From Aequorivita iocasae (lineage in GTDB: Bacteria; Bacteroidota; Bacteroidia; Flavobacteriales; Flavobacteriaceae), in the NCBI RefSeq assembly GCF_016757735.1, contig NZ_CP068439.1, positions 1,736,001 through 1,800,000 of the forward strand: a stretch of DNA of 64,000 nt, given 5' to 3'. The translations under genes were made by a program, and so were the position numbers. The notes below the pieces were generated by a model. The model saw only the letters and a list, made by a program, of their open reading frames with translations. It ran no database searches and was not told the origin of the DNA. Below, piece after piece: positions 16,037 through 32,388 of the stretch (positions are counted from its first letter, which is position 1; each line of letters starts with the position of its first letter).

Positions 16037-16104
16037 AGTCCAAAAGTACTGTGTTTACTTTTAAAATTAATGGGAAACCTTAAAATTCCTATATTGCATC
16101 ATCT

Positions 16105-16674: not shown

Positions 16675-16701
16675 TAGGTATAGATTTGAAAATTACAGAG
16701 A

Positions 16702-16733
16702 TTTGCAATTCTAACTAACAAGCGTTAGTTTTG
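16702..16733 (+). promoter_or_regulatory. paaE promoter with TetR-type operator
   Basis: TTTG at 16702-16705 and TAGTTTTG at 16726-16733 form a consensus Bacteroidota promoter with a 20-base spacer. Inside it, AACTAAC-AAGC-GTTAGTT at 16713-16730 is a perfect 7-base inverted repeat with a 4-base centre that fills the spacer and overlaps the -7 box, so a bound dimer would block RNA polymerase. Confidence 0.72.
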
Positions 16734-16757
16734 TTAGCTTAATTCGACAAAAAACAG

Positions 16758-17831: not shown

Positions 17832-17833
17832 TT

Positions 17834-17872
17834 AGCTTATGGTATATAGCCTAAAGCTTAAAGCATATTAGT
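17834..17872. repeat. Heptad tandem between paaE and paaA
   Basis: Five words of 7 bases: AGCTTAT, GGTATAT, AGCCTAA, AGCTTAA, AGCATAT. They fill the gap between the paaE stop and the paaA start. Pairing between halves is weaker than at the other loci. Confidence 0.55.
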
Positions 17873-18829
17873 ATGACTGAAAAAGATATAAAAAATTTAG
17901 AGGAAATTTTCGAAGCCCGCATTGCGCGCGACGAAAAGATAGAGCCGAAGGATTGGATGCCTGAGAAATACAGGCAAACCCATATTCGGCAGATAAGCCA
18001 ACACGCGCATTCCGAAATCATTGGGATGCTTCCTGAAGGAAATTGGATTACCCGTGCCCCATCATTGCGCAGAAAGGCTGCATTACTTGCAAAAGTACAG
18101 GATGAAGCTGGTCACGGATTGTATCTGTATTCCGCCTGTGAAACCTTGGGTATTTCGCGGGATGAACTTTACGAGCAATTACATTCCGGCAAGGCGAAAT
18201 ATTCTTCCATATTCAACTACCCAACAATCACTTGGGCCGATATGGGCGCCATTGGTTGGCTGGTTGACGGTGCTGCTATTATAAACCAAGTGCCACTTTG
18301 CAATACTTCTTTTGGTCCCTACGCTCGTGCAATGGTTCGTGTGTGTAAGGAAGAAAGTTTCCACCAACGACAAGGTTATGAAATTATGCTTACCCTTTGC
18401 CGTGGCACCGAGGAGCAAAAAGCTATGGCGCAGGATGCCCTGAACCGTTGGTGGTGGCCAAGTTTGATGATGTTGGGCCCAACGGATGCGGAGTCGGTTC
18501 ATACAGAGCAATCCATGAAATGGAAACTGAAACGTAAAAGTAATGACGAACTTCGTCAGCAGTTTATAGACCAGACTGTACCTCAAGCTGATCTTTTGGG
18601 ACTTACAATTCCAGATCCAGACTTAAAATTTAATGAAGAAACCGGCCATTATGATTTCGGCGAAATTGATTGGGATGAATTTTGGCAAGTGGTGAAAGGC
18701 CACGGCCCGTGCAATAAAGAACGTATGAACGCCCGTATTAATGCTTGGGAAAATGGAGAATGGGTTCGTGATGCGGCAATGGCGTATGCTGAAAAGAATG
18801 AAAATAAAAAAGTAGCAAAAGCGAGTTGA
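17873..18829 (+). CDS. paaA: Phenylacetyl-CoA epoxidase, catalytic subunit PaaA
   Basis: Catalytic diiron subunit of the ring 1,2-epoxidase that converts phenylacetyl-CoA to the 1,2-epoxide. At 318 residues it has normal length. Motifs with metal-ligand Glu/His are visible: [20 protein letters not shown] near residue 80 and [15 protein letters not shown] near residue 160, in the ferritin-like fold. It works as a complex with PaaC (structural), PaaB and reductase PaaE. The gap to paaB, normally short, here holds a four-helix-bundle gene with flanking repeats. Confidence 0.97.
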
Positions 18830-18831
18830 TT

Positions 18832-18862
18832 TAGTATTTAGTAGTGAGTAATTAGTAATAAG
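18832..18862. repeat. Left heptad arm of four-helix element 1
   Basis: Words TAGTATT, TAGTAGT, GAGTAAT, TAGTAAT in tandem. Imperfectly complementary to the right arm at 19238-19268 (words CAATACA, CAATACT, AACTACT, CAATACT). The two arms enclose only the gene at 18875-19228. Confidence 0.8.
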
Positions 18863-18874
18863 AAACTTATAAAT

Positions 18875-19228
18875 ATGAATGTTTTAAATGATTTAAAAGT
18901 TTGGAAAAAGGCAATGGATATTGCGGTTGAAACTTATAAGTTATCTTCACAATTTCCTAAAGAGGAAAAATACGGACTTACAAGTCAAATAAGAAGAAGT
19001 GCTGTTTCTGTTCCGTCAAATATTGCTGAAGGTGCAGGAAGAAATTCTAAAGGTGAATTTAAAAATTTTATAGGTATTGCAAATGGATCGGCCTATGAGC
19101 TCTTTACTCAATTAATACTTTCCCATAAACTTAATTTAGTTTCAGAGACTTTGGTGGAACCAATACTCAAGGAAGTGATAGAAGTACAGAAAATGAATTA
19201 TTCATTAATTAAATCCTTAGAAAAATAA
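18875..19228 (+). CDS. Four-helix-bundle protein 1 (23S rRNA intervening-sequence type)
   Basis: A 117-residue, almost fully helical protein. LKVWKKAMDIAVETYKL, GLTSQIRRSAVSVPSNIAEG and the later FIGIANGSAYEL follow the pattern of the S23/IVS four-helix-bundle family, best known from intervening sequences in 23S rRNA genes and related to the Avd accessory proteins of diversity-generating retroelements. Biochemical function is not established; basic surfaces suggest nucleic-acid binding. It lies between paaA and paaB, in the same direction, enclosed by complementary heptad arms. The paa pathway has no known need for it, so it is best read as a guest gene. Most similar by eye to four-helix protein 4. 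Confidence 0.85.
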   Translation: MNVLNDLKVWKKAMDIAVETYKLSSQFPKEEKYGLTSQIRRSAVSVPSNIAEGAGRNSKGEFKNFIGIANGSAYELFTQLILSHKLNLVSETLVEPILKEVIEVQKMNYSLIKSLEK

Positions 19229-19237
19229 TGAAAAGCT

Positions 19238-19268
19238 CAATACACAATACTAACTACTCAATACTATA
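19238..19268. repeat. Right heptad arm of four-helix element 1
   Basis: Words CAATACA, CAATACT, AACTACT, CAATACT, then ATA; the reverse complement (AGTATTG, AGTAGTT type) matches the left arm at 18832-18862. It ends 3 bases before the paaB ATG. Confidence 0.8.
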
Positions 19269-19271
19269 ATT

Positions 19272-19556
19272 ATGAAGAAAAATTGGCCCCTATGGGAAAT
19301 ATTTGTCCGCAGTAAAAATGGCCTGGAGCACCGTCATTTTGGTAGTCTTCATGCGGCTGATGCAGAAATGGCACTGGAGAATGCACGTGATGTTTACACC
19401 CGCAGAAATGAGGGCGTGAGTATTTGGGTGGTAGAAAGTAAACATATTACTGCCTCAAATCCCGCAGATAACGGGGAATTGTTTGAACCCGCACAGGACA
19501 AAGTATATCGCCATCCCACTTTTTATGATTTGCCGGATGAGGTGAAACACATGTAG
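19272..19556 (+). CDS. paaB: Phenylacetyl-CoA epoxidase subunit PaaB
   Basis: Small subunit (94 residues) of the epoxidase, required for activity and thought to help connect the PaaAC core with the reductase. WPLWEIFVRSKNGLEHRHFGSLHA and ALENARDVYTRRNEGVSIWVV are diagnostic of the family. Start ATG 19272 follows a heptad arm of the upstream element. Confidence 0.96.
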   Translation: MKKNWPLWEIFVRSKNGLEHRHFGSLHAADAEMALENARDVYTRRNEGVSIWVVESKHITASNPADNGELFEPAQDKVYRHPTFYDLPDEVKHM

Positions 19557-19560
19557 TCAT

Positions 19561-19590
19561 GGCATTAGGGATTTGGCATTAGGAAATAGT
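19561..19590. repeat. Left heptad arm of four-helix element 2
   Basis: Words GGCATTA, GGGATTT, GGCATTA, GGAAATA. Complementary to the right arm at 19963-19990. It fills the gap between the paaB stop and the four-helix start. Confidence 0.85.
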
Positions 19591-19965
19591 ATGAAAAGTA
19601 ACTATCATTTTAAATTTGAAGGATTACAAGTTTATCAAAAAGCTATGGATTTCGGTGAGGTTATTAATACTTTAGTAATGAAATTTCCTAATCATGAACT
19701 ATATGCCCTTTCTTCACAGTTTAGAAGAGCTGCCGATTCAATTGCACTAAATATTTCAGAAGGATATCCAGGAAGTGATGCGCAATTTATCAAACATATT
19801 AACTATTCAATTTATAATTGTAATGAATGTGTCTCTTGTAGCACAAAAGCCAAAAGAAGGAACTACATTTCTCAGAAAGAAGACGAAGAAAACAGAATGT
19901 ACCTGTCTGAATTAACAAAAATGCTTTCATCGCTTAGAAAAAAAATTCAAGAACGAAACCAATAA
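19591..19965 (+). CDS. Four-helix-bundle protein 2
   Basis: A 124-residue helical protein of the IVS/S23 type: FEGLQVYQKAMDFGEVI, LSSQFRRAADSIALNISEG, then a Lys/Arg-rich helix ending SSLRKKIQERNQ. It shares its N-terminal pattern and the ADSIA-NISEG segment with four-helix protein 3, so these two form one subfamily. Two closely spaced Cys occur in NECVSCS. A TTG at 19573 would give a longer frame but lies within the heptad arm; ATG 19591 is chosen. The stop codon TAA lies inside the right heptad arm. Function unknown. Confidence 0.85.
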   Translation: MKSNYHFKFEGLQVYQKAMDFGEVINTLVMKFPNHELYALSSQFRRAADSIALNISEGYPGSDAQFIKHINYSIYNCNECVSCSTKAKRRNYISQKEDEENRMYLSELTKMLSSLRKKIQERNQ

Positions 19966-19990
19966 TTCCTAATCCCAAATGCCTAATTCC
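19963..19990. repeat. Right heptad arm of element 2, containing a stop and a start codon
   Basis: Words TAATTCC, TAATCCC, AAATGCC, TAATTCC. The arm holds the stop of four-helix gene 2 (19963-19965) and the ATG of paaC (19979-19981), so the first few PaaC residues (MPNS) are encoded by the element. Confidence 0.85.
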
Positions 19991-20734
19991 TTTATTTTTA
20001 ATTACATTCTCACAATAGCCGACAATTCCCTAATCCTCGCACAACGATTGGGCGAACTTTGCGGCCACGGACCAAGTTTGGAAACCGACATTGCGCTTAC
20101 AAATATTTCTTTGGATTTGCTCGGACAAACACGTAGTTACTATCAATACGCCGCAAAAATTTCCGGAGAAAATAAGACCGAGGACGATATCGCTTTCCTA
20201 AGAATTGAAAGGGAATATAACAATTGCTTGCTCGTGGAGCAGCCCAATACCCATTTTGGATATACTCTGGGGCGCCAATTTTTATTTGATGTCTATCACT
20301 TATTGTTGATGGAAAAATTGCAGCACAGTCCCGATGAAACCTTGGCTGCAATCGCCAAAAAAGGAATAAAGGAAGTTAGCTATCACAAACGTTTTTCATC
20401 GGATTGGGTGAAGCGTTTGGGCGATGGAACTGAGGAAAGTAAAGCAAAAATGCAGGAAGCAATTGATGATCTTTGGCGATTTACCGATGAACTTTTCTAT
20501 ATGACAGAAGCTGAAAAGCAGGCTGTAAAAGAAGGAATTGGCATTGATGTTTCAACTTTTAAAGAAAAATATTACGAGGAAGTTTCCGAAGTTTTAAAGG
20601 AAGCAACCCTAACAGTTCCCGAAAATAAATATTTTACCAAAGGCGGAAAAGAAGGAATCCACACAGAGCAAATGGGCTATTTGTTGGCAGATTTGCAATA
20701 TATGCAACGAACGTACCCGAATATGCAATGGTAA
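19979..20734 (+). CDS. paaC: Phenylacetyl-CoA epoxidase subunit PaaC
   Basis: Structural partner of PaaA (251 residues, usual length) with a ferritin-like fold in which metal ligands are not catalytic. LAQRLGELCGHGPSLETDIALTNISLDLLGQ-type sequence at the N-terminus, KLQHSPDETLAAIAKKG and a C-terminal HTEQMGYLLADLQYMQR are typical. The start codon falls in the right heptad arm of the preceding element; no other in-frame start precedes the conserved region, so the element supplies the N-terminal residues. Confidence 0.96.
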   Translation: MPNSFIFNYILTIADNSLILAQRLGELCGHGPSLETDIALTNISLDLLGQTRSYYQYAAKISGENKTEDDIAFLRIEREYNNCLLVEQPNTHFGYTLGRQFLFDVYHLLLMEKLQHSPDETLAAIAKKGIKEVSYHKRFSSDWVKRLGDGTEESKAKMQEAIDDLWRFTDELFYMTEAEKQAVKEGIGIDVSTFKEKYYEEVSEVLKEATLTVPENKYFTKGGKEGIHTEQMGYLLADLQYMQRTYPNMQW

Positions 20735-20743
20735 AAAATTAGT

Positions 20744-20822
20744 GATTGCTGATTTCTGATTTTTGATTGATGAAAGAATAAAACCTTCAAAAATCTGTAA
20801 TCAAAAATCGACAATCTTCAAT
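20744..20822. repeat. Heptad palindrome, empty, between paaC and paaD
   Basis: Left arm 20744-20771: GATTGCT, GATTTCT, GATTTTT, GATTGAT. Right arm 20788-20822: CAAAAAT, CTGTAAT, CAAAAAT, CGACAAT, CTTCAAT. The arms are complementary with a 16-base loop and no gene. The right arm ends 1 base before the paaD ATG. Confidence 0.85.
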
Positions 20823-20823
20823 A

Positions 20824-21330
20824 ATGATGACACTTACAGAAAAACCGAACATACAAGAAAATTTGATTCCAGTTCTGAAAACCGTTTCAGATCCAGAGAT
20901 TCCCGTGCTTTCTGTTTTGGATTTGGGTGTAATTCGCGAAGCGGTTGAAGAAAATGGAATTGTAAAAATTAAACTTACACCCACATATTCTGGATGCCCG
21001 GCAATGGACGTAATTGGCGATGATTTAAAAAAGGCTTTTTCGGAAATAGGGAAAAAAGCCGAGGTGGAATTAATTCTTTCCCCTGCCTGGTCAACAGATT
21101 GGATTTCAGAAGAAGGGCTTCAAAAAATGGAGAAATACGGTATTGCCCGACCGCTTTCTGAATCGCATGACAAAGACGTTTTACTTGGCGAAAAAAAACT
21201 GGTGAAATGTCCGCAATGCGGAAGCACAAATACCCATTTGGTCAGCCAATTTGGTTCCACGGCTTGCAAAGCGCTTTTTAAATGTGATGATTGCCAGGAA
21301 CCGTTCGATTACTTTAAATGTTTAAAATAA
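20824..21330 (+). CDS. paaD: PaaD, maturation factor of the phenylacetyl-CoA epoxidase
   Basis: A 168-residue MIP18/DUF59-type protein (VSDPEIPVLSVLDLGVIREA near the N-terminus, YSGCPAMDVIGDDL) followed by a Cys-rich C-terminal zinc-ribbon-like segment, CPQCGSTNTHLVSQFGSTAC, then KCDDCQEPFDYFKC. It is thought to assist metal or Fe-S centre assembly in the Paa epoxidase; the exact step is not proven. ATG 20824 follows the empty heptad palindrome; a second ATG is the next codon. Confidence 0.95.
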   Translation: MMTLTEKPNIQENLIPVLKTVSDPEIPVLSVLDLGVIREAVEENGIVKIKLTPTYSGCPAMDVIGDDLKKAFSEIGKKAEVELILSPAWSTDWISEEGLQKMEKYGIARPLSESHDKDVLLGEKKLVKCPQCGSTNTHLVSQFGSTACKALFKCDDCQEPFDYFKCLK

Positions 21331-21338
21331 TAACGAAA

Positions 21339-21369
21339 TGTCACCCTGAGCACAGTCGAAGGGTCTTTT
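21339..21369. repeat. GTCGAAG-type dispersed repeat between paaD and paaG
   Basis: Begins TGTCACCCTGAGCACAGTCG and ends AAGGGTCTTTT. It fills most of the 51-base gap between paaD and paaG. A copy of the family listed at 14249. Confidence 0.75.
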
Positions 21370-21381
21370 AAAATATAAAAT

Positions 21382-22164
21382 TTGAATAAAAGTATAACCA
21401 CCCAAATAGAAAATAAAGTAGCAACGCTAACACTAAACCGGCCGGAGGTTTTTAACAGCTTCAATCGCGAGATGGCGCTTCTGCTCCAAAATGAATTGGA
21501 TGCGTGTGAAAAAAATCCAGAAGTTCGCGCGATTGTTATCACAGGAAGTGGAAAAGCTTTCTGTGCGGGGCAGGATTTAAAGGAAGTCACATCGCCGGAA
21601 CTGAATCCCGGTTTCAAAAAAATTCTCGAAGAACATTACAATCCCATTATTCAAAGAATTCGAAATATTGAAAAACCGGTAATTGCCGCCGTAAATGGCG
21701 TTGCGGCAGGAGCAGGGGCAAATATTGCTTTAGCTTGCGATGTGGTTGTTTCTTCAGAAAACGCGAGTTTTATTCAAGCCTTCAGCAAAATTGGATTGGT
21801 TCCGGATAGCGCAGGAACCTTCTTTTTGCCACGGTTGATTGGGTTTCAAAAAGCATCGGCTTTAATGATGTTGGGCGATAAAGTCTCTGCGGCAGAAGCT
21901 GAAAAGTTGGGGATGGTTTATAAAGTGGTTTCTTCAGAAATTTTTTCGGAAGAAGTAAATAATATTGCGGATACACTTGCAAATATGCCAACAAAAGCAT
22001 TGGGATTAACGAAGCGTTTGTTGAACAATTCAATGCAGAATTCCTTGGAGGAACAATTGAATTTGGAAAGCAAACTCCAGATAGAATCTGCCCAAAGTGA
22101 GGACTATGCGGAAGGAGTTGATGCGTTTGTTAACAAAAGAAAACCAAATTTTAAAGGAAATTAA
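21382..22164 (+). CDS. paaG: Ring-1,2-epoxyphenylacetyl-CoA isomerase PaaG
   Basis: Crotonase-family isomerase of 260 residues that turns the ring epoxide into the seven-membered oxepin-CoA. SGKAFCAGQDLKEV and VNGVAAGAGANIALACD form the oxyanion-hole region, and VPDSAGTFFLPRLIG carries the Asp expected in PaaG. The start is TTG 21382, the only plausible start ahead of the conserved N-terminus. The stop TAA is followed immediately by the paaH ATG, indicating translational coupling. Confidence 0.92.
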   Translation: MNKSITTQIENKVATLTLNRPEVFNSFNREMALLLQNELDACEKNPEVRAIVITGSGKAFCAGQDLKEVTSPELNPGFKKILEEHYNPIIQRIRNIEKPVIAAVNGVAAGAGANIALACDVVVSSENASFIQAFSKIGLVPDSAGTFFLPRLIGFQKASALMMLGDKVSAAEAEKLGMVYKVVSSEIFSEEVNNIADTLANMPTKALGLTKRLLNNSMQNSLEEQLNLESKLQIESAQSEDYAEGVDAFVNKRKPNFKGN

Positions 22165-23355
22165 ATGATCAAAAACGTTGGGATTATTGGCGCAGGAACA
22201 ATGGGCAGCGGCATCGCGCAAGTGGCCGCAACCGCCGGATGTTCAGTAAAATTATACGATACCAAAACGGATGCGCTTGAAAAGGCCAGGACAGATCTCG
22301 TAAAAATAATGGATCGTTTGGTGGAAAAGGGAAAAATCATTCAGGAAGAAAAAGATCGTATTCAGAGTAACATTCAATATGTGAGTTCCTTAAAGGATTT
22401 ATCAAATTCTGATTTGACGATTGAAGCCATTGTAGAAAATCTCGATATAAAGAAAAACGTTTTTTCCACTTTGGAAAAATTTGTGGGCGCCGATTGTATT
22501 ATTGCGTCAAATACATCGTCGCTTTCTATTGCGTCCATAGCATCTTCGCTGCAAAAACCTGAGCGTTGCATCGGTATTCACTTTTTCAATCCCGCGCCTT
22601 TGATGAAATTGGTTGAGGTTATCCCTTCTATCCAAACTTCCGAAGAAACATTAAATATTTCAGTAAAGACAATTAAGGACTGGGGCAAAACCGTTGCTGT
22701 GGCAAAGGATACTCCGGGATTTATTGTAAATCGTGTTGCCCGTCCATTTTACGGTGAAGCACTTCGCATTTATGAGGAAGGAATCGCATCTGTTGCTGAA
22801 ATAGATTCCGCAATGAAAGAAATCGGTAATTTCAGGATGGGGCCTTTCGAATTGATGGATTTTATTGGTAACGATGTAAATTACACCGTTACCGAAACTG
22901 TTTTTGAGGCCTTTTATTACGATCCGCGCTACAAACCTTCATTTACCCAAAAGCGATTTGCGGAAGCAGGTTATTTGGGAAGAAAGAGTGGAAAGGGGTA
23001 TTATAATTATTCTGAAAATGGACAAATGTCAGTCGGAGCGCAATCAATCACTAATTCTGAAAATGAATTATCAAAAGAAGCTATTTTCGACAGAATCCTG
23101 ATAATGCTAATAAACGAAGCTGCCGACGCGCTTTTTTGGAACATCGCTTCGGCAGATGATATTGATAATGCAATGACCAAAGGTGTAAACTATCCGAAAG
23201 GATTGCTGGCTTGGGCCGATGAAAAGGGAATGGATTGGTGTGTTGATAAAATGGACGAACTTTACGAAAAATATCACGAAGATAGATATCGTTGTTCGCC
23301 CTTGTTGCGGAAAATGAAGGAAACAGGTAGTAGGTTTTTTAGCTATGAGCTATGA
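22165..23355 (+). CDS. paaH: 3-hydroxyacyl-CoA dehydrogenase PaaH
   Basis: Oxidises 3-hydroxyadipyl-CoA to 3-oxoadipyl-CoA with NAD+. The N-terminal Rossmann motif GIIGAGTMGSGIAQVAATAG, IHFFNPAPLMKLVEVI and VNRVARPFYGEALRI are typical; a second C-terminal 3HCDH domain follows the FRMGPFELMDFIG segment. At 396 residues it is shorter than the E. coli protein (about 475). The last codons, reading SYEL then stop, are formed by CTATGAG heptads of the following repeat, so the native C-terminus has probably been replaced or extended by the element. Confidence 0.93.
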   Translation: MIKNVGIIGAGTMGSGIAQVAATAGCSVKLYDTKTDALEKARTDLVKIMDRLVEKGKIIQEEKDRIQSNIQYVSSLKDLSNSDLTIEAIVENLDIKKNVFSTLEKFVGADCIIASNTSSLSIASIASSLQKPERCIGIHFFNPAPLMKLVEVIPSIQTSEETLNISVKTIKDWGKTVAVAKDTPGFIVNRVARPFYGEALRIYEEGIASVAEIDSAMKEIGNFRMGPFELMDFIGNDVNYTVTETVFEAFYYDPRYKPSFTQKRFAEAGYLGRKSGKGYYNYSENGQMSVGAQSITNSENELSKEAIFDRILIMLINEAADALFWNIASADDIDNAMTKGVNYPKGLLAWADEKGMDWCVDKMDELYEKYHEDRYRCSPLLRKMKETGSRFFSYEL

Positions 23356-23383
23356 GCTATGAGCTATGAGTTGTGAGTTATGG
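23341..23383. repeat. Left heptad arm of four-helix element 3
   Basis: Four exact CTATGAG words followed by TTGTGAG and TTATGG. It begins inside the 3' end of paaH. It pairs with the right arm (CTCAAGG words) with about one mismatch and one G-T pair per heptad. Confidence 0.85.
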
Positions 23384-23410
23384 TTGGATGAATTTATAAA
23401 ACATTGAAAT

Positions 23411-23782
23411 ATGTTTGAAAGTGAATACCATTTTAGTTTTGAAAATTTATTGGTTTATCAGAAAGCCATGGTTTTTGGTGAAGTAGTGGATAAATTAGTG
23501 GAATCATTTCCAAAAAAAGAAATGTATCGTTTATCTTCTCAGTTTTGTCGGGCTGCAGATTCAATCGCCGCGAATATTTCAGAAGGTTCTGGAAGTTCAG
23601 ACCCTAATTTTAATCGATATTTAAAAATGGCCTGGGATTCAAGCCACGAGTGTGTAACTTGGAATTCAAAAGCATATTTAAGAAAATATATTTCTCATGA
23701 AGAATTTGAAAACAATAGGAAATCTTTAACAGAATTAGGAAAAATGATTTCATCGCTAAGACGAAAATTAAATTCTAAATAA
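23411..23782 (+). CDS. Four-helix-bundle protein 3
   Basis: A 123-residue helical protein of the IVS/S23 type: FENLLVYQKAMVFGEVVDKL, LSSQFCRAADSIAANISEG, and a basic C-terminus SSLRRKLNSK. It is clearly closer to four-helix protein 2 than to proteins 1 and 4. It lies between paaH and the PaaI thioesterase, same strand, within complementary heptad arms. Function unknown; nucleic-acid binding is a reasonable guess from charge and family. Confidence 0.85.
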   Translation: MFESEYHFSFENLLVYQKAMVFGEVVDKLVESFPKKEMYRLSSQFCRAADSIAANISEGSGSSDPNFNRYLKMAWDSSHECVTWNSKAYLRKYISHEEFENNRKSLTELGKMISSLRRKLNSK

Positions 23783-23798
23783 AATAGGTAATCTTTAA

Positions 23799-23850
23799 CT
23801 CAAGGCTCAAGGCTCAAGGCTCAAGGCCCAAGACTCACAGCTCAAGGCTA
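23799..23850. repeat. Right heptad arm of four-helix element 3
   Basis: Four exact CTCAAGG words, then CCCAAGA, CTCACAG, CTCAAGG, CTA. Ends 4 bases before the paaI ATG. Confidence 0.85.
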
Positions 23851-23854
23851 AATT

Positions 23855-24265
23855 ATGAAGCAAGAACTAATTCCATATAAAATGCTCAGTCAGGATGCCT
23901 TCAGCCAATGGCTCGGCATCGAAATATTGGAAGTGGAAAAGGGAAGGTGCAAAGTTGCGATGACCGTTCGTAAAGAAATGCTGAACAGTATGAACAAAGC
24001 CCATGGGGGAATAAGTTACAGTTTGGCGGACACCGCTTTCGGTTTTGCCGCAAACACCCACGGAAAATACGCAGTTTCCATTGAAACTTCCATAAACCAT
24101 ATTGAAGCCTTGAATGAAGGCGATTATTTAACGGCTGAATCAGTGATTGAAAAAGTAGGAAATAAATTGGGTTTTAATGTCGTGGAAGTAAAAAGAGGCG
24201 AGGAATTGGTAGCTTTGTTTAAAGGAGTGGTATATAGAACTTCAAAAGATTGGGCTGAAAACTAA
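23855..24265 (+). CDS. paaI: PaaI hotdog thioesterase
   Basis: A 136-residue hotdog-fold acyl-CoA thioesterase that releases CoA from ring-hydroxylated or stalled phenylacetyl-CoA intermediates. MNKAHGGISYSLADTAFGFAAN is the catalytic helix region with the active-site Asp, and SIETSINHIEAL follows. The length matches E. coli PaaI (about 140). ATG 23855 comes directly after the heptad arm. Confidence 0.93.
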   Translation: MKQELIPYKMLSQDAFSQWLGIEILEVEKGRCKVAMTVRKEMLNSMNKAHGGISYSLADTAFGFAANTHGKYAVSIETSINHIEALNEGDYLTAESVIEKVGNKLGFNVVEVKRGEELVALFKGVVYRTSKDWAEN

Positions 24266-24283
24266 CAATTAATTTATAAGACT

Positions 24284-25141
24284 ATGAAATGGCAAGGCAG
24301 AAGACAAAGTGGCAACGTCGATGACCGACGTGGAATGAGCAAGGGCAAATTGGCGGCGGGCGGCGGAATAGTGGTGACGTTGGTGGTGCTTGCGCTTAAC
24401 TTTTTCGGTGGGGAAACGGCTCAACAGTTGGCGCCAATCGTGGAACAATTGGGCAATAGCCAATCCGTGCAGAATACCGAACAGCGCGAGCTAACTGCCG
24501 AGGAAAAGAAAATGGGCGATTTTATGGCCACCGTTCTGGCCGATACCGAGGATGTTTGGAGCGAGGTTTTTGCTGAAAATAATTTAGGTAATTACGAAAA
24601 GCCCACAATGGTGCTTTTTACCGACGCCGTGAGCACCGGCTGTGGAAATGCGAGTTCGGCCACGGGACCATTTTACTGTCCGGCGGACCACAAACTCTAT
24701 ATGGATTTGGCTTTTTTTGATGAGCTTCAAACCCGTTTTGGCGCTAAAGGTGGCGATTTCGCGATTGCTTATGTAACCGCTCATGAAATTGGGCATCACG
24801 TGCAGACGTTGCTCGGAACTTCGCAACAAGTCACCAAGCTACAGCAACAAAATAGGAGTGAAGCCAATAGGCTTTCAGTAGCATTGGAACTTCAGGCAGA
24901 TTTTTACGCAGGTGTTTTTGCCCATTATAACAAACAATATTTAGAAGAAGGCGATATAGATGAAGCCTTAAGTGCAGCAAATGCTGTTGGTGACGATGCC
25001 ATCCAAAAACGAATGCAGGGAAGTGTGCAGCCTGATAGTTTTACCCACGGAACTTCAGAACAACGAAAAAGATGGTTTATGAAAGGGTATAATACCGGAG
25101 ATATTCGGCAGGGAGATACCTTTTCGGAAATTTTAAATTAA
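24284..25141 (+). CDS. Neutral zinc metallopeptidase (YpfJ family)
   Basis: A 285-residue membrane-anchored zinc-dependent peptidase homologue: an N-terminal MKWQGRRQSGNVDDRRG typical of the family, one membrane segment (about residues 25-45), and a catalytic domain with HEIGHH near residue 167 as the HExxH site and LELQADFYAGV carrying the third ligand. Substrates are unknown. It is an unexpected member of a phenylacetate cluster, 18 bases after paaI and before paaJ, so it may be cotranscribed without sharing the pathway. Confidence 0.9.
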   Translation: MKWQGRRQSGNVDDRRGMSKGKLAAGGGIVVTLVVLALNFFGGETAQQLAPIVEQLGNSQSVQNTEQRELTAEEKKMGDFMATVLADTEDVWSEVFAENNLGNYEKPTMVLFTDAVSTGCGNASSATGPFYCPADHKLYMDLAFFDELQTRFGAKGGDFAIAYVTAHEIGHHVQTLLGTSQQVTKLQQQNRSEANRLSVALELQADFYAGVFAHYNKQYLEEGDIDEALSAANAVGDDAIQKRMQGSVQPDSFTHGTSEQRKRWFMKGYNTGDIRQGDTFSEILN

Positions 25142-25161
25142 TACAAAATAGCAACTAATTT

Positions 25162-25196
25162 ATTCCCCCTTTGAAGGGGGTTAGGGGGATGTTTTT
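25162..25196. repeat. CCCCCTTTGAAGGGGG dispersed repeat
   Basis: A short perfect hairpin (CCCCCTTTGAAGGGGG) followed by TTAGGGGGATGTTTTT. Near-identical copies lie at 40747-40780 and 59348-59379 and a diverged one at 43469-43510. The hairpin plus T run could weaken transcription into paaJ. Confidence 0.75.
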
Positions 25197-25221
25197 CCTC
25201 AGAATTGATTATATTAAAAAA

Positions 25222-26433
25222 ATGAAAGAAGCTTATATAGTAGACGGAATTAGAACACCAATAGGCAGTTATCAAGGAACGCTAAGCGCGGTAAGAACAG
25301 ACGATTTGGCCGCTTTGGTAATTGCCGAAATTGTAAAAAGAAACCCAAACATTCCCAAAGAAGCATACGATGATGTAATTCTAGGCTGCGCAAATCAAGC
25401 GGGGGAAGATAATAGAAATGTTGCGCGAATGGCTTCACTTTTGGCGGGTCTTCCAGTAACAGTTCCAGGCGAAACCGTAAACAGACTTTGCAGTAGCGGA
25501 CTTTCAGCAATAATTCACGCAAATCGGGCGATAAAAGCTGGCGACGGCGATTTGTTTATTTCCGGCGGGGTGGAGAATATGACGCGCGGACCCTACGTGG
25601 TCGCAAAACCATCTTCCGCTTTTGGAACCGATGCCAAAATGTACGATTCCAGTTTTGGGTGGCGTTTTGTAAATCCTAAAATGGCCGAAATGTATGGCAC
25701 GGATGGCATGGGAAATACTGCGGAAAATTTGGTCGAAAAGCACAACATTAATCGTGAAGACCAAGACATCTTTGCCTACCATTCACAAATGAAAGCTGCA
25801 AAAGCCCAGCAAAATGGACGTTTGGCGGAAGAAATAGTTCCGGTGGAAATTCCGCAGCGAAAAAAAGATCCAATAATTTTTAAGGACGATGAATTCATTC
25901 GTCCCGATACCACCAAAGAAGTTTTGGCAAAATTGCGACCCGCCTTCAAAAAAGATGGAAGCGTAACTGCAGGTAATTCTTCAGGTTTAAACGATGGCGC
26001 GGCGGCAACCATTATTGCTTCGGAAGATGCCGTAAAAAAATATAATTTGAAACCCATTGCAAGAATTGTAAGTTCCGCCGTTGTGGGGGTAGAGCCACGA
26101 ATTATGGGTATCGGTCCCGTTGAAGCTTCCAACAAAGCACTTGAAAAAGCAGGTTTGAAAATGGAAGATATGGACGTAATTGAATTAAATGAAGCCTTTG
26201 CTTCACAAGCATTGGCGTGCATCCGTGAGTGGGGATTGAAAGACGATGACCTGCGAATCAACCCAAATGGGGGTTCCATTGCAATCGGCCATCCGCTTGG
26301 AGTTACGGGAACTAGAATAGCTTATTCCGCAGCCTTGGAACTTCAACTTCAAAATAAAAAATATGCGCTAATCACAATGTGCGTGGGCGTTGGGCAAGGC
26401 TATGCCGCTATAATTGAAAATGTGAATATATAA
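25222..26433 (+). CDS. paaJ: Thiolase PaaJ
   Basis: Thiolytically cleaves 3-oxoadipyl-CoA (and the dehydrosuberyl-CoA intermediate) to acetyl-CoA and a shorter acyl-CoA. The nucleophile Cys is in NRLCSSGLSAI at residue 90; GGSIAIGHPLGVTG supplies the His and CVGVGQGYAA the second Cys. Length 403 residues is normal. The frame is open further upstream to a possible start at 25171 that runs through the dispersed repeat; ATG 25222 (MKEAYIVDGIRTPIGS) matches family N-termini. Confidence 0.95.
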   Translation: MKEAYIVDGIRTPIGSYQGTLSAVRTDDLAALVIAEIVKRNPNIPKEAYDDVILGCANQAGEDNRNVARMASLLAGLPVTVPGETVNRLCSSGLSAIIHANRAIKAGDGDLFISGGVENMTRGPYVVAKPSSAFGTDAKMYDSSFGWRFVNPKMAEMYGTDGMGNTAENLVEKHNINREDQDIFAYHSQMKAAKAQQNGRLAEEIVPVEIPQRKKDPIIFKDDEFIRPDTTKEVLAKLRPAFKKDGSVTAGNSSGLNDGAAATIIASEDAVKKYNLKPIARIVSSAVVGVEPRIMGIGPVEASNKALEKAGLKMEDMDVIELNEAFASQALACIREWGLKDDDLRINPNGGSIAIGHPLGVTGTRIAYSAALELQLQNKKYALITMCVGVGQGYAAIIENVNI

Positions 26434-26435
26434 GT

Positions 26436-28967
26436 ATGCAAAAAACACAACACTACATATTAGGAAATTGGGCCGAAGGCAAGGGCGAAGGCTCGCCAAT
26501 TCTCGATTCAGTTACGGGCGAACATTTTACAAGCGTAACCACCGAAGGACTCGATATTCCTGAAATCCTGCAATACGGTCGTGACAAAGGTGAAACCCTT
26601 CGGAAGATGACGTTTCAGGAGCGCGGATTGATGCTGAAGAAACTCGCGATGCATCTTACCAAGAAGAAACAGCAGTTTTATGAAATAAGTTATAGAACTG
26701 GTGCAACAAAAGTTGACAGTTGGATAGATATTGAAGGCGGTTTCGGCAATTTGTTTGCGAATGCTTCCCTTCGGAAATTATTTCCCAATCAGCCATATCA
26801 CGTGGAAGGCGATCCTATCGACCTTTCCCGCGGTGGCCGTTTTATGGCGCACCACATTATGGTGCCGCGCGAAGGCGTAGCCGTTCACATAAACGCGTTT
26901 AATTTTCCCGTTTGGGGAATGTTGGAAAAATGTGCTGTAAACTGGATGGCGGGTATGCCAGCCGTAGTTTTGCCCGCACCACAGACTGCTTATTTGGCCG
27001 AAGCGGTTGTAAAGGAAATCATCGCTTCTGGAATTTTGCCTGAAGGTTCTTTGCAACTCATTTCAGGAACCGCAAAAAATATTCTCGATACCGTGGAATC
27101 GCAGGATGTTGTTACGTTCACGGGTTCGGCGAGCACTGGGAAAATTCTGAAAAAACATCCACGGTTGATTGAAGAATCGGTTCCTTTTACGATGGAAGCT
27201 GATAGTCTCAATGCTTCTATTTTAGGCGAAGATGCCGTTCCCGGAACTCCGGAATTCGATCTGTTTATCAAAGAGGTTCGCAATGAAATGACCGTGAAAT
27301 GCGGACAAAAATGTACCGCAATTCGAAGAATAATCGTTCCAGAAAATTTGGTGGAAGATGTACAGATTGCCCTTGGAAAACAACTTGAAAAAGTAACCAT
27401 CGGCGATCCGCGTTTAAAAGAAGTGCGAATGGGTGCTTTAGTGAGTGATGCCCAGCGCAATACAGTTAAGGAACAAATTCAAAAAATAACACAAACTGCA
27501 AAAATAGTTTACGGCGACTTTGAGGATTTTGAAGTGATGGGAGCCGATTCAAAAAAGGGTGCTTATTTAAAACCCATTTTACTTCGCGAAGACAATCCGC
27601 TTCAAAATGAAGCAGCACATATTACCGAGGCTTTCGGGCCGGTGAGCACGATTATGCCCTATAAAAATTTGCAGGAAGCGATAAAACTTTCAAAAATGGG
27701 CAAAGGTTCCTTGGTAAGTTCCATTGTTACAAACGACGATAAAATTGCGAAGGAATATACCGTTTCCACAGCAACGCACCACGGAAGGATTTTAGTTTTA
27801 AATCGCGAAAGTGCCAAACAGAGCACGGGTCACGGTTCGCCATTGCCAAATTTAATCCACGGCGGCCCAGGTCGCGCAGGTGGCGGCGAGGAAATGGGCG
27901 GTGTTCGCGGCGTAAAACATTATTTGCAGCGTTGCGCTATTCAAGGTTCACCTTCAACATTGACGGAAATCACTGGAATTTATCAGCCAAAAGCTGATTA
28001 TAAAGAGGCTGAAAAGCATCCGTTTGCTTATCATTGGGAAGATATCGAGCCGGGAATGTCCATCAGAACACACAATCGCACGATTACGGATACCGATATT
28101 ATCAATTTTGCCAATCTCACTTGGGATCATTTTTACGCGCATACCGATATTACTTCGCTCGACGGAAGTATTTTTGAAAAGCGCACTGCCCACGGCTATT
28201 TCATTTTGGCTGCCGCTGCGGGACTTTTCGTTTACCCAAATAAAGGCCCGGTTGCCGCGAATTATGGTTTGGAGGAATGCAGGTTTCTTCGGCCCATTTA
28301 TCACAACGACACGGTTTATGTTCGGTTGACTTGCAAGCAAAAAATTGACCGCGAGCAAAAAGGGACTGAATTGCCTTCCGGTATCGTAAAATGGTACGTT
28401 GAGGTTTTTGATGCAAATATTGACGAAAGTTCTTCGGAAGAAGAAAAGCAGGGCGAATTGCTGGCCGTGGCAACCATTTTGACTATGGTTCAGAAAAAGC
28501 AGACGGTTTTCGAAGAAATGACTTCAGAAAAAATTCAGAAATATTTGAATAATCTTTCTGAAGATTCAAAACCGAAATGGGGCACGATGACACCCCAGCA
28601 AATGTTGGAACATTTGGAATATACCTACCGAATTGCTTCGGGAGAAATTCAGGATTTTGAAATTGCAACCCCCGAACAATACTTGGAAAAAGTTCATTCT
28701 ACCTTATACAATTACGAAAAAATGCCGCGCGAATACGATTTTCCGCTGGCCAAGGAATCAAAAATCACTGAAACTAAGCATCCCGATTTGGAGACGGCAA
28801 AAAAGAAATTGTTGGAGGCACGAGCAGATTATTTAAAATATTTCAAACAAAACCCGGATGCCAAAACCAAAAATGTGGTTTTTGGCGAATTGAACAAATT
28901 TGAATGGTATCTTTTGGAACGAAAGCATTTGAATCATCATTTTGAGCAATTCAATCTTTTAGACTAA
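26436..28967 (+). CDS. paaZ: Bifunctional PaaZ (aldehyde dehydrogenase and oxepin-CoA hydrolase) with extra C-terminal DUF1569-like domain
   Basis: Opens the oxepin-CoA ring with its C-terminal MaoC-like hydratase and oxidises the resulting aldehyde with its N-terminal ALDH domain. ALDH residues are Glu254 and Cys293 (KCGQKCTAIRR); hydratase residues are Asp564 and His569 (NLTWDHFYAHTD). Standard PaaZ is about 680 residues; this one is 843. Residues from about 690 form a further domain with WGTMTPQQMLEHLEYTYRIA and FGELNKFEWYLLERKHLNHH, the pattern of DUF1569 (DinB-like) proteins. This is a fusion without a known purpose. The gene starts 2 bases after paaJ. Confidence 0.95.
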   Translation: MQKTQHYILGNWAEGKGEGSPILDSVTGEHFTSVTTEGLDIPEILQYGRDKGETLRKMTFQERGLMLKKLAMHLTKKKQQFYEISYRTGATKVDSWIDIEGGFGNLFANASLRKLFPNQPYHVEGDPIDLSRGGRFMAHHIMVPREGVAVHINAFNFPVWGMLEKCAVNWMAGMPAVVLPAPQTAYLAEAVVKEIIASGILPEGSLQLISGTAKNILDTVESQDVVTFTGSASTGKILKKHPRLIEESVPFTMEADSLNASILGEDAVPGTPEFDLFIKEVRNEMTVKCGQKCTAIRRIIVPENLVEDVQIALGKQLEKVTIGDPRLKEVRMGALVSDAQRNTVKEQIQKITQTAKIVYGDFEDFEVMGADSKKGAYLKPILLREDNPLQNEAAHITEAFGPVSTIMPYKNLQEAIKLSKMGKGSLVSSIVTNDDKIAKEYTVSTATHHGRILVLNRESAKQSTGHGSPLPNLIHGGPGRAGGGEEMGGVRGVKHYLQRCAIQGSPSTLTEITGIYQPKADYKEAEKHPFAYHWEDIEPGMSIRTHNRTITDTDIINFANLTWDHFYAHTDITSLDGSIFEKRTAHGYFILAAAAGLFVYPNKGPVAANYGLEECRFLRPIYHNDTVYVRLTCKQKIDREQKGTELPSGIVKWYVEVFDANIDESSSEEEKQGELLAVATILTMVQKKQTVFEEMTSEKIQKYLNNLSEDSKPKWGTMTPQQMLEHLEYTYRIASGEIQDFEIATPEQYLEKVHSTLYNYEKMPREYDFPLAKESKITETKHPDLETAKKKLLEARADYLKYFKQNPDAKTKNVVFGELNKFEWYLLERKHLNHHFEQFNLLD

Positions 28968-28972
28968 TTGAA

Positions 28973-29028
28973 CCAAGAGCCAAGAAACAGGACAATATAA
29001 GTCTTGGTTCTTGATTCTTGATTCTTGA
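28973..29028. repeat. Heptad palindrome, empty, between paaZ and the second hydratase
   Basis: Left arm 28973-28993: CCAAGAG, CCAAGAA, ACAGGAC. Right arm 29001-29028: GTCTTGG, TTCTTGA three times. A 7-base loop. The same word family recurs at 32318-32378. Confidence 0.82.
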
Positions 29029-29038
29029 AACAATTTTT

Positions 29039-29791
29039 ATGAACAAACCCTACGTAAAACAAGAGATTAACAACAACATTGCAACCATAGAATTTTTCCA
29101 TCCGGCCCATAATAGTTTGCCGGGAGATTTGCTGGCAAAACTTGCAAAAACAATCACCGAAGCTGGAAATAATGACGAAGTAAAAGTGATTATTTTGAAA
29201 AGTGGAGGAGACCGTACTTTTTGCGCCGGCGCGAGTTTTAATGAGTTAATCAATATTAACGATGCCGAAACCGGAAAGGTTTTTTTCAGCGGATTTGCAA
29301 TCGTGATTAACGCAATGCGAAAATGCCCAAAATTCATTATTGGAAGAATTCAAGGAAAAACCGTGGGCGGCGGTGTTGGCGTGGCTTCAGCGACTGATTA
29401 TTGCATGGCTACGAAGTTTGCCGCAATCAAATTAAGCGAGTTGAATGTGGGAATCGGCCCATTTGTGGTTGGTCCCGCCGTTGAACGAAAACTTGGTTTG
29501 AGCGCGATGAGCCAAATAGCCATTGACGCAAATTCTTTTTACGAGGCAGAGTGGGCACGTCAAAAAGGCTTGTACAATCAGGTTTTTGATTCTTTGGAAG
29601 CATTGGACGAGGCCGTTCAAAAATTCGCTGAAAATCTTTGTAATTACAACCCCGAAGCAATGAAGGAGATGAAAAAAGTATTTTGGAGCGGGACGGAAGA
29701 TTGGGATAAACTTTTGGCGGAAAGAGCTGTGATTTCAGGGAGGTTGGTTCTTTCGGAATTTACCAAGGAGAAATTAAAAAGTTTTAGTTGA
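29039..29791 (+). CDS. Enoyl-CoA hydratase/isomerase family protein (PaaF-like position)
   Basis: Crotonase-fold protein of 250 residues; GDRTFCAGASFNELI and GKTVGGGVGVASATDYC are the substrate-loop motifs. In the paa pathway a second crotonase, PaaF, hydrates 2,3-dehydroadipyl-CoA, and this gene is the natural candidate, but the sequence differs enough from E. coli PaaF that I do not assign the symbol. ATG 29039 follows the heptad arm; an alternative start at 29018 lies within that arm. Confidence 0.85.
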   Translation: MNKPYVKQEINNNIATIEFFHPAHNSLPGDLLAKLAKTITEAGNNDEVKVIILKSGGDRTFCAGASFNELININDAETGKVFFSGFAIVINAMRKCPKFIIGRIQGKTVGGGVGVASATDYCMATKFAAIKLSELNVGIGPFVVGPAVERKLGLSAMSQIAIDANSFYEAEWARQKGLYNQVFDSLEALDEAVQKFAENLCNYNPEAMKEMKKVFWSGTEDWDKLLAERAVISGRLVLSEFTKEKLKSFS

Positions 29792-29797
29792 TTTTAT

Positions 29798-29896
29798 AAA
29801 AAGACAAAAAGACAAAAAGACAAAAAGACAAAAAGACAAAAAGACAAAAAGACGAAAAGACGAAAGGACAAAAGGACGAAAGGACAAAGGGACAGA
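29798..29896. repeat. Left arm of four-helix element 4 (octamer tandem)
   Basis: About a dozen tandem words AAAAAGAC, decaying to GAAAAGAC, GAAAGGAC, AAAAGGAC: period 8 rather than 7. Complementary to TTTTTGTC/TTTTTGTCA in the right arm. Uninterrupted A/G-rich strand. Confidence 0.8.
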
Positions 29897-29902
29897 AGTG
29901 AT

Positions 29903-30262
29903 ATGGCGTTAAAGCATAATTTTAGAAAATTGGCAATTTGGCAGGAAGCAAGAAAGCTTGTCAGTGAAACTTATATGATAACTTCAAAAGTTCCAAAATC
30001 TGAAATTTATGGACTTTCAAATCAGTTGCAACGATGCGCCGTTTCAATTGCCTCCAATATTGCAGAAGGTTCAGCAAGACATTCTGATAAACATTTTATT
30101 CAATATTTGGAAACGGCACTGGGATCGACTTTTGAGTGGGAAACACAGTTGATTTGTGCTAATGATTTAAAATATATTGATGATTTGTTATTTGATAGAA
30201 ATCTGCAAACAATCCAAAAATTGCAAGCAATGATATCAAATTTCAAAAACACATTAAACTAA
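29903..30262 (+). CDS. Four-helix-bundle protein 4
   Basis: A 119-residue helical protein of the IVS/S23 type: KLAIWQEARKLVSETYMITS, GLSNQLQRCAVSIASNIAEG and FIQYLETALGSTFEWETQL. It groups with four-helix protein 1 by eye (VSIASNIAEG against VSVPSNIAEG). It lies between the second hydratase and paaY, same direction, enclosed by octamer-word arms. Function unknown. Confidence 0.86.
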   Translation: MALKHNFRKLAIWQEARKLVSETYMITSKVPKSEIYGLSNQLQRCAVSIASNIAEGSARHSDKHFIQYLETALGSTFEWETQLICANDLKYIDDLLFDRNLQTIQKLQAMISNFKNTLN

Positions 30263-30263
30263 A

Positions 30264-30301
30264 TATCCTTTAATCCTTTTTGTCAATTTATCTTTTTGTC
30301 A
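30264..30301. repeat. Right arm of four-helix element 4
   Basis: ATCCTTTAATCCTTTTTGTC followed by AATTTATCTTTTTGTCA, imperfectly complementary to the AAAAAGAC tract at 29798-29896. Confidence 0.72.
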
Positions 30302-30315
30302 TATAATTTAATAGA

Positions 30316-30915
30316 ATGATTTACAGTTTCAAAGGCCATATTCCAGTAATTCACGAAAGCAGTTTCGTTCATCCTTTGGCGGCGGTAACAGGTAATGTGA
30401 TTATTGGAAAAAACTGCTATATCGGTCCCGGTGCGGCAATTCGCGGCGATTGGGGTGAAATCATTTTGGAGGATGGCGTGAATGTGCAGGAAAACTGTAC
30501 CGTACATATGTTTCCGGGGAAAAGTATTGTGCTGAAAGAAAGTGCTCACGTGGGCCACGGCGCGATCATTCACGGAGCGAATTTGGGCAGAAATTGCCTA
30601 ATCGGGATGAACAGCGTAATAATGGATGATGCCGAAATTGGCGATGAATGCATCGTTGGCGCAATGAGCTTTGTAAAAGCGGAAGAGAAATTTCCAAACC
30701 GAAAATTGATTGTTGGCAATCCAGCAAAAGCGATAAAGGATATTTCAGATGAAATGATTGCTTGGAAAACTGCCGGAACGAAATTGTATCAGCAATTGCC
30801 AACGGATTGTCACGAAAGTTTGAGAGAAGTGGAGCCGTTGCGGGAAATTCCAAAGAATAGACCGATTCAAGAAGATTTTTATAAAACTTTGGAAGAATTT
30901 AGAGCAAAGAACTAA
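30316..30915 (+). CDS. paaY: PaaY hexapeptide-repeat thioesterase (gamma-carbonic-anhydrase-like)
   Basis: A 199-residue left-handed beta-helix protein built from hexapeptide repeats (GNVIIGKNCYIGPGAAIRGD, VHMFPGKSIVL, AHVGHGAIIHGA, CLIGMNSVIMDDAEIG). His residues of the gamma-class metal site are present. In paa clusters PaaY is a CoA thioesterase clearing dead-end ring-hydroxylated intermediates. Position and length support this role. Confidence 0.92.
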   Translation: MIYSFKGHIPVIHESSFVHPLAAVTGNVIIGKNCYIGPGAAIRGDWGEIILEDGVNVQENCTVHMFPGKSIVLKESAHVGHGAIIHGANLGRNCLIGMNSVIMDDAEIGDECIVGAMSFVKAEEKFPNRKLIVGNPAKAIKDISDEMIAWKTAGTKLYQQLPTDCHESLREVEPLREIPKNRPIQEDFYKTLEEFRAKN

Positions 30916-30928
30916 GAATAAAGATTGA

Positions 30929-31015
30929 TGTCTCCCGAGCGCAGTCGAGGGGTCATTTGAAAGATATATTTTGATTAGTACACAAAAGCACTTCGACTGC
31001 GCTCAGTGTGACATT
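30929..31015. repeat. GTCGAAG-type inverted repeat pair
   Basis: Left copy 30929-30955 (TGTCTCCCGAGCGCAGTCGA...) and right copy 30988-31015 in opposite orientation (GCACTTCGACTGCGCTCAGT...). Together they form a hairpin with GAGCGCAGTCGA stems between paaY and the E2 gene. Confidence 0.78.
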
Positions 31016-31023
31016 TATACAAA

Positions 31024-32310: not shown

Positions 32311-32317
32311 AATTTTA

Positions 32318-32378
32318 GAATCAAGAGCCAAGAAGCAAGACGGATAAATCTTGGTTCTTGATTCTTGACTCTTGTTTC
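32318..32378. repeat. Heptad palindrome, empty, between E2 and E1 genes
   Basis: Left arm 32318-32341: GAATCAA, GAGCCAA, GAAGCAA, GAC. Right arm 32349-32378: TCTTGG, TTCTTGA twice, CTCTTGT, TTC. A 7-base loop. Same word family as 28973-29028. Confidence 0.83.
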
Positions 32379-32388
32379 ACAAAACAAA

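Follow-up and report, generated by a model that had tools for sequence, protein, structure and literature searches.

S23 genes framed by complementary word arms in the paa operon of Aequorivita iocasae: candidate relatives of rRNA intervening sequences in protein-coding operons

Four S23 genes between word arms in the paa operon

In the paa operon of Aequorivita iocasae, four genes of the S23 family (TIGR02436/PF05635), known from the intervening sequences (IVS) of 23S rRNA, each lie between two arms of tandem short words that can pair with each other in cis. Judging from their sequences and from those of their relatives, we consider with moderate confidence that these units are IVS-like elements living in protein-coding operons, i.e. 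in mRNA. The DNA analysed, hereafter the window, is a stretch of 64 kb (positions 1,736,001 to 1,800,000 of NZ_CP068439.1) inside a host genome of 3.35 Mb made up of a single contig; the PaaC protein encoded there has its nearest counterpart in Aequorivita (93% for the best match). Support at the sequence level comes from the cis-pairing of the heptad arms, the linkage of arms to gene lineage and the occupation of gaps by different subfamilies, and further from sense orientation, the loss of sequence between word repeats and purifying selection on the gene.

A previous, sequence-only reading of the window had described a gene of this type between mutually complementary word arms in each of four gaps, all pointing along the operon, and these observations were borne out. 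All four genes match PF05635 and TIGR02436 ("four helix bundle protein"), the latter with scores above cut-off, and lie on the + strand, which is the direction of the paa operon. The complementarity of left and right arms exceeds that of nearly all unrelated arm pairs (from S23 genes with <35% protein identity), with 3/154, 3/376, 6/316 and 1/166 such pairs equalling or beating the own value for elements s1, s2, s3 and s4, respectively, and the predicted RNA fold joins the 90-bp flanks by 40, 46, 51 and 29 base pairs in the same order.

All arms and genes that follow are on the + strand. Element s1, in the paaA/paaB gap, has a left arm at 18831..18862 (words TTAGTAT, TTAGTAG and TGAGTAA), an S23/IVP four-helix-bundle gene at 18875..19228 (PF05635, 3e-40; TIGR02436, 9.2e-39; 2GSC chain E, 2.4e-20) and a right arm of CAATACT words at 19236..19265. 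In the paaB/paaC gap, s2 consists of a left arm of GGCATTA words (19561..19589), an S23/IVP gene with an ATG start (19591..19965; PF05635, 2.3e-25, query from 19603), for which the list of open reading frames (ORFs) gives an alternative upstream TTG start at 19573, and a right arm (19966..19990) whose final 12 nt are the opening codons of paaC. The arms of s1 and s2 were read directly, with support from cis complementarity and fold, and their words are legible in this way even though the arrays are too degenerate for Tandem Repeats Finder (TRF), which misses them. The left arm of s3, in the paaH/paaI gap, is made of CTATGAG words (23341..23383; TRF 23341-23382, 7 bp; fold) and includes the end of paaH with its stop codon (23353-23355); it is followed by the S23/IVP gene (23411..23782; PF05635, 1.1e-27) and by a right arm of CTCAAGG words (23799..23849; TRF, 7 bp). 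The two arms pair in the minimum free energy structure predicted for the paaH/paaI transcript (-131 kcal/mol, z -3.16, 100 shuffles), the left arm mainly as 6-bp blocks with one unpaired base between them. Finally, s4, in the paaF-like/paaY gap, has a left arm of 11.4 copies of the 8-base word AAAAAGAC (29798..29888; TRF, 8 bp), an S23/IVP gene (29903..30262; PF05635, 7e-35) and a right arm (30264..30301; read directly, complementarity and fold) that is only loosely periodic (lag-8 match 0.52). The unit of left arm, S23 gene and right arm measures about 420-525 bp. The S23 gene is the sole gene called in each of the four, none of which holds a called transposase gene, and there was no Rfam match at the gathering threshold in window positions 16000-33000.

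Periodicity and complementarity of the arms

The host genome holds 17 matches to TIGR02436/PF05635. S23 genes are carried by all 28/28 Aequorivita genomes, with 5 to 21 apiece, and at least one copy is present in 114/148 genomes drawn across the phylum, 34/148 being without one at E <= 0.001; no match was found in 14 well-known control genomes. The genes were collected by means of a custom hidden Markov model, since a tblastn search with the four window proteins overlooked many divergent ones (in gaps of 420-460 bp). After removal of matches that were partial, duplicate, N-containing or had incomplete 90-bp flanks, 296 matches were reduced to 220 distinct full-length genes, of which 146 come from Aequorivita and 74 from other Bacteroidota, each taken together with 90 bp of either flank. 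Loci outside the paa set were mostly picked by high TIGR02436 rank, so that the sample is biased to intact genes. The median isoelectric point of the 220 proteins, 8.6, would be compatible with nucleic-acid binding, without being a proof of it.

The layout recurs in these genomes, as the sequence-only reading had expected. The fraction of matches at lag 7 was 0.40 in both S23 flanks, compared with 0.330 in 1,224 control gaps, and mean complementarity between upstream and downstream arms was 16.7 in cis, against 9.4 for mismatched arms, taken from S23 genes with <35% protein identity. The 99th percentile of mismatched-arm complementarity was surpassed by 109/220 genes (about 2 expected) and, when one gene per protein cluster was counted, by 25/52. 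At least 18 flank-to-flank pairs were present in the predicted fold of 155/220 genes, and of 55/220 when an unrelated right flank was substituted. Chance tandem repeats in AT-rich gaps might account for some lag-7 excess, which is seen in control gaps too (0.330 vs about 0.29 at lags 3-5 and 9-11), but hardly for the higher value at S23 flanks, nor for a cis complementarity far above that of mismatched arms, nor for the 28 lag-7 arrays in a 235-kb sample of the host genome (the window plus nine stretches, non-random), since five Markov shuffles of intergenic sequence gave 0-1; we regard this explanation as practically negligible. Of those 28 arrays, 23 are intergenic, intergenic sequence making up 21 of the 235 kb.

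When word sharing above the 99th percentile was classified, 105 of the 220 genes had inverted sharing only, 24 direct only, 4 both and 87 neither. Inverted stems are therefore the commonest state, not a universal one. Complementary array pairs within 1.2 kb numbered 143, at loci mostly chosen for S23. Between the two arrays lies an S23 gene in 90 cases and an S23 fragment in 8; a further 32 form close hairpins, 6 have no called ORF inside, and in 7 there is an ORF of 259-305 aa that by eye resembles an ordinary host gene.

Arms follow the gene lineage, not the site

The words had been taken to be specific to each locus. They track the lineage of the protein instead. Counting pairs, many of which are non-independent (e.g. 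within one subfamily), S23 genes at the same site whose proteins are <40% identical had an arm similarity above the 95th percentile in 5/98 cases and above the 99th in 0/98, whereas genes at different sites surpassed the 99th percentile in 28/72 pairs at 70-90% protein identity, in 22/117 at 60-70% and in 63/6,357 at 40-60%. Arms thus follow the gene and not the site, and words are lineage-specific, because unrelated genes at one site share none, while related genes elsewhere often do. The s1 protein is only 30-35% identical to the other three paa S23 proteins, hence the four different words. No fixed terminal inverted repeats were found, since arms differ between subfamilies and are shared among relatives only.

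Heptad hairpins also occur without a gene. Three were located in the window, none of them assigned to a strand: one of GATTNNN words in the paaC/paaD gap (20739..20818; read directly, array scan), one of CCAAGAG / TCTTGAT words in the paaZ/paaF gap (28968..29029; TRF, direct reading, array scan) and one of the same CCAAGAG / TCTTGAT family after the E2 gene (32317..32376; array scan). The S23-bearing version of the GATTNNN family is found in the paaG/paaH gap of loci L020, L028 and L029. It could be proposed that such hairpins are resident intergenic repeats, a landing pad into which S23 genes merely drop, and heptanucleotide repeats have been reported in cyanobacteria. In favour of this, the 235-kb sample has S23-free lag-7 arrays in 17/150 gaps but only four S23 genes, all in the window, 9/18 such gene-less arrays resemble S23 arms more closely than word-permuted controls do (at 0.1), and some S23 genes lie between same-direction arrays (the plasmid copy L280, and the 24/220 with direct sharing only). 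We consider a landing pad unlikely, given that <40%-identical S23 genes at one site share no words (0/98) and related genes elsewhere do (28/72), and that an empty relative at the three-state site described below, L041, is devoid of any heptad.

Two observations concern the orientation of arms. In a group of loci with, by eye, a common downstream gene (L100 and L104 vs L101, L102 and L106), the left arm is either GTTGATGG-like or like its reverse complement, CCATCAAC, so that arms can flip from inverted to direct. In a gap that looks cysD/cysN-like by eye, word arrays are direct in L115, L163, L176 and L230 and inverted in L103.

Filled, solo and empty sites

The paa operon was surveyed in 21 Aequorivita-like loci (L018-L037 plus the window). 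At paaA/paaB, 8 loci carry an S23 gene (the L032 copy being frame-broken), 7 a gene-less heptad hairpin (by eye), 3 a gap of 1 bp and 3 something else. An S23 gene is present at paaB/paaC in 9/21 loci, belonging to two subfamilies, at paaH/paaI in 6/20, the gap being 0 bp in 7/20, and at paaF/paaY in 7/10 loci seen. In Aequorivita, 11/26 sites with at least two collected elements hold at least two subfamilies (split at 60% identity). The clearest case is paaI/paaJ in three Flavobacteriaceae with flanks 95-96% identical, where L041 is empty (its junction reads GGGAATAATGAAAG, the stop overlapping the start), L039 has a solo hairpin and L040 is full; a second clean pair is formed by L068 (empty) and L073 (full). 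The gaps therefore vary between filled and empty among relatives, in line with the sequence-only reading and unlike strict vertical inheritance. A host tree bearing the gap states had weak nodes, and no conclusion is based on it. No target-site duplication is visible at L040/L041 or L073/L068, the only two clean pairs.

In L040 there is a single arm copy 5' of the S23 gene, and an arm copy plus the hairpin 3' of it, so that its full form and the solo form of L039 are linked through exchange between two direct arm copies. Likewise, L036 retains only the left arm of the element of L034, the remainder being absent between ATTGAAA repeats. Because of these two cases, solo hairpins may be deletion products, although the reverse order is also possible.

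Orientation and selection

That S23 genes are read with their operon holds well beyond the window: in codirectional gaps 199 of them run along their neighbours and 6 against. Only 12/217 lie in non-codirectional gaps, compared with 551/2,630 for other neighbouring genes, and of the broken S23 copies 10 have the same orientation, 1 is mixed and none is opposite. Such a bias would fit either genes that depend on being transcribed by read-through or elements that enter in sense orientation.

The median ratio of nonsynonymous to synonymous substitution rates (dN/dS) of S23 genes was 0.077, for the 132 usable of 159 ortholog pairs from the ten largest site groups; the pairs were restricted to 70-99.5% identity, which lowers dN. 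For the paa enzymes of L018-L033, values were 0.022 (paaA), 0.014 (paaB), 0.043 (paaC) and 0.066 (paaH). By this measure, S23 genes are under purifying selection. This could mean that S23 gene and stem form a module useful to the host, which sets processing or gene dosage in operons and owes its persistence to selection, not to spreading. The closeness of the S23 value to those of paaH and paaC (from different pair sets), the presence of copies in every Aequorivita genome and the finding of other subfamilies in the same gaps of relatives would all agree with such a role; it is nevertheless improbable in our view, as close relatives have empty gaps of 0-1 bp at the same places (3/21 at paaA/paaB, 7/20 at paaH/paaI), occupied sites span unrelated pathways, plasmid genes and cas operons, and 34/148 genomes of the phylum lack S23 altogether at the threshold given above.

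Copies on plasmids and in cas loci, and search of phage records

Matches were found in 27 plasmid records, of which 17 regions were hand-picked, 14 of them cyanobacterial and one each from Riemerella, Azospirillum and Gemmatirosa (in L292 and L293, unannotated, gene ends were set by hand). A lag-7 array (>=15 of 21) was present on one or both sides in 14/17, with no lag control for these plasmids, and a lag-8 array in two more, L278 having none. Inverted arms surpassed the 95th percentile of mismatched arms in 7/17, and direct sharing did so in 2/17. The S23 gene of Nostoc pNe_5, whose GGGAGTA arms are near-perfect, is found in antisense orientation between genes for ribonucleotide reductase.

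Three cyanobacterial plasmid copies are found among cas genes (L280, L288 and L289), with heptad or octad flanks like those of the others, the gene of L280 lying between same-direction arrays. The function 23S_rRNA_IVP has been listed among those associated with CRISPR-Cas (PMC3936711). The genes listed there resemble ours in being S23 genes inside an operon, but the copies considered here are flanked like any other element of this kind, and they probably represent a gap element rather than a cas component. The s1 protein had no match in 50,697 phage records (E 1e-3); 20 viral contigs encode a relative.

Relation to rRNA IVS and other known systems

The parallel with 23S rRNA IVS is closer than had been stated. 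The IVS of Coxiella burnetii contains an S23 ORF, a stem of 28 bp and, preceding the ORF, tandem GACAGAT repeats (two or three, depending on the strain), and is cut by RNase III (PMC4990558). From what is described there, rRNA IVS share with the present elements a single sense S23 ORF, complementary terminal arms, a long stem and a sporadic distribution, and the Coxiella IVS, of 428-444 nt, has its tandem heptamers upstream of the ORF as the paa elements have theirs. At the paa elements, a sense S23p/IVP ORF is present and complementary termini are predicted to form a stem. Differences are also apparent. The rRNA IVS sit in 23S rRNA, usually in helix 9, 25 or 45, whereas the paa elements lie between paa protein genes and, by location, are not members of the rRNA IVS; cleavage by RNase III is documented for the former (PMC4990558) and putative in the latter; and Coxiella S23p is argued there to be decaying and probably not made, while the S23 genes studied here are under purifying selection. 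The function and origin of IVS and the role of S23p are described in the same source as a long-standing puzzle.

Repeats of the heptamer TAACTGA have been reported in Beggiatoaceae, cyanobacteria and Bacteroidetes, with Aequorivita sublithincola named (PMC4679880). Like the present arms they are tandem 7-mers, mostly intergenic and in the same phyla, but they consist of one fixed word, direct and mostly upstream of starts, for which a role as a translational signal is considered possible, and the available text of PMC4679880 draws no link to S23. Avd of diversity-generating retroelements (NF033474, PF22296) is a distantly related four-helix bundle; S23 proteins score far below the Avd cut-offs, reaching at most 25.5 bits with NF033474 (cut-off 80).

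Conventional transposons are accompanied by gene-less relatives, solo long terminal repeats or miniature inverted-repeat transposable elements. The present elements are alike in having many gene-less copies per gene-bearing copy and in that full and solo forms are linked by exchange between repeats, but differ in the lack of a transposase, of a clear target duplication (two clean empty sites) and of a fixed terminal sequence. Searches of the open PubMed Central literature, which leaves out most subscription papers and bioRxiv preprints, brought up no account of S23 genes flanked by heptad arms within operons.

Proposed mechanism and mode of spread

Since the element lies in sense orientation, after one gene's stop codon and ahead of the following start codon, it should be transcribed with its operon. 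In the transcript its two arms could pair as a long stem, leaving the S23 gene in the loop. The S23 protein (the solved relative 2GSC is described as a pentamer of four-helix bundles) might bind this stem, and RNase III would cut it by analogy with rRNA IVS, in which case the insertion would be nearly harmless to the neighbouring genes.

The sequence-only reading had also proposed spreading at the RNA level, which the present data do not favour. If the excised RNA were reverse transcribed and re-inserted, with S23 acting like Avd, a strong sense bias that includes broken copies could be understood, and there is the weak similarity to Avd; but no match to the reverse transcriptase domain RVT_1 was found in the host genome (E <= 0.001) or in a total of 19/28 genomes of the genus, host included, and the Nostoc copy is antisense in spite of its near-perfect arms, all of which makes a retro-element very unlikely. 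We tentatively prefer movement through DNA, by strand switching at the repeated words during replication or recombination, to reverse transcription. It is conceivable, if doubtful, that a single class of mobile element free of nuclease and reverse transcriptase, consisting of an S23 pentamer gene in a stem of renewed heptad words and spreading through operons by strand switching at its own words, underlies rRNA IVS as well as the cyanobacterial heptanucleotide repeats and the heptad hairpins found between genes in Bacteroidota.

Several results weigh against the interpretation as mobile IVS-like elements with a functional stem. In 87/220 genes words are shared neither in inverted nor in direct orientation (39 of these retain a strong lag-7 array in one or both flanks), and the 24/220 with direct sharing only would form no stem. 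Among 139 pairs whose arms can still be recognised as homologous, own pairing was better than swapped pairing in 53, equal in 15 and worse in 71. As this gives no sign of compensatory change, selection of the stem as RNA is not proved, and stems may be fixed when an element forms or moves and then be slowly eroded, instead of being maintained by selection at each base. An own-minus-cross figure for the 35-80% range was discounted as evidence of compensation, since pairs with unrelated arms dominate it. Some filled/empty variation, e.g. in L023 and L030 at paaF/paaY, comes with altered PaaF ends, so that part of it resembles an exchange of operon alleles between species by recombination. Near-identical S23 copies at different sites are absent from the sample (87% at the highest); no recent move has therefore been caught, and movement is deduced from history. 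Finally, 3/14 cyanobacterial plasmid copies are antisense to both neighbours.

If the favoured interpretation as IVS-like elements in operons is correct, relatives of IVS exist by the dozen in operons of free-living bacteria, in filled, solo and empty states among close relatives, and ordinary strains would suffice for testing questions about IVS. Some of the heptad repeats of Bacteroidota and cyanobacteria might likewise owe their origin to such elements, which could also account for four-helix-bundle genes that are annotated as components of operons or cas loci.

Arms reaching into coding sequences

Element words make up the stop and final codons of paaH, with the SYEL end of PaaH, and the right arm of s2 covers the initial 12 nt of paaC, including the MPN start of its protein; at this place the N-termini of PaaC differ in most relatives. 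In a wider set, arrays extend 6 nt or more into the end of the upstream coding sequence in 30/64 cases and into the downstream start in 17/68. At window positions 19979-19990 and in the paaI starts of L019, L026 and L029, element words encode the start regions of enzymes (PaaC, MPN..., and PaaI), resulting in lineage-specific N-termini. The two S23 flanks of L133, and likewise of L155, look by eye like coding parts of a single gene, as would be expected if S23 had inserted into a reading frame.

Other elements in the same gaps

A GIY-YIG-like gene is present in the paaB/paaC gap of L019 and L035 (the L035 copy with a weak TIGR01453 match) and in the paaY/E2 gap of L033, in two cases beside a AATTCCCGCG-AGGCGGGAATC hairpin, copies of which without the gene occur at paaC/paaD in L026, L028 and L031. 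Gene and hairpin look like a second, unrelated gap element. Hairpins resembling repetitive extragenic palindromes, variants of GTCACCCTGAGCGCAGTCGAAGGGT, are found at window positions 30915-31023 and in the paaB/paaC gaps of L022, L023, L030, L032 and L033. The paaJ/paaZ gap of L025 and L035, from two species, contains a two-gene unit which, named by eye, is like an antitoxin plus a PemK/MazF-type toxin.

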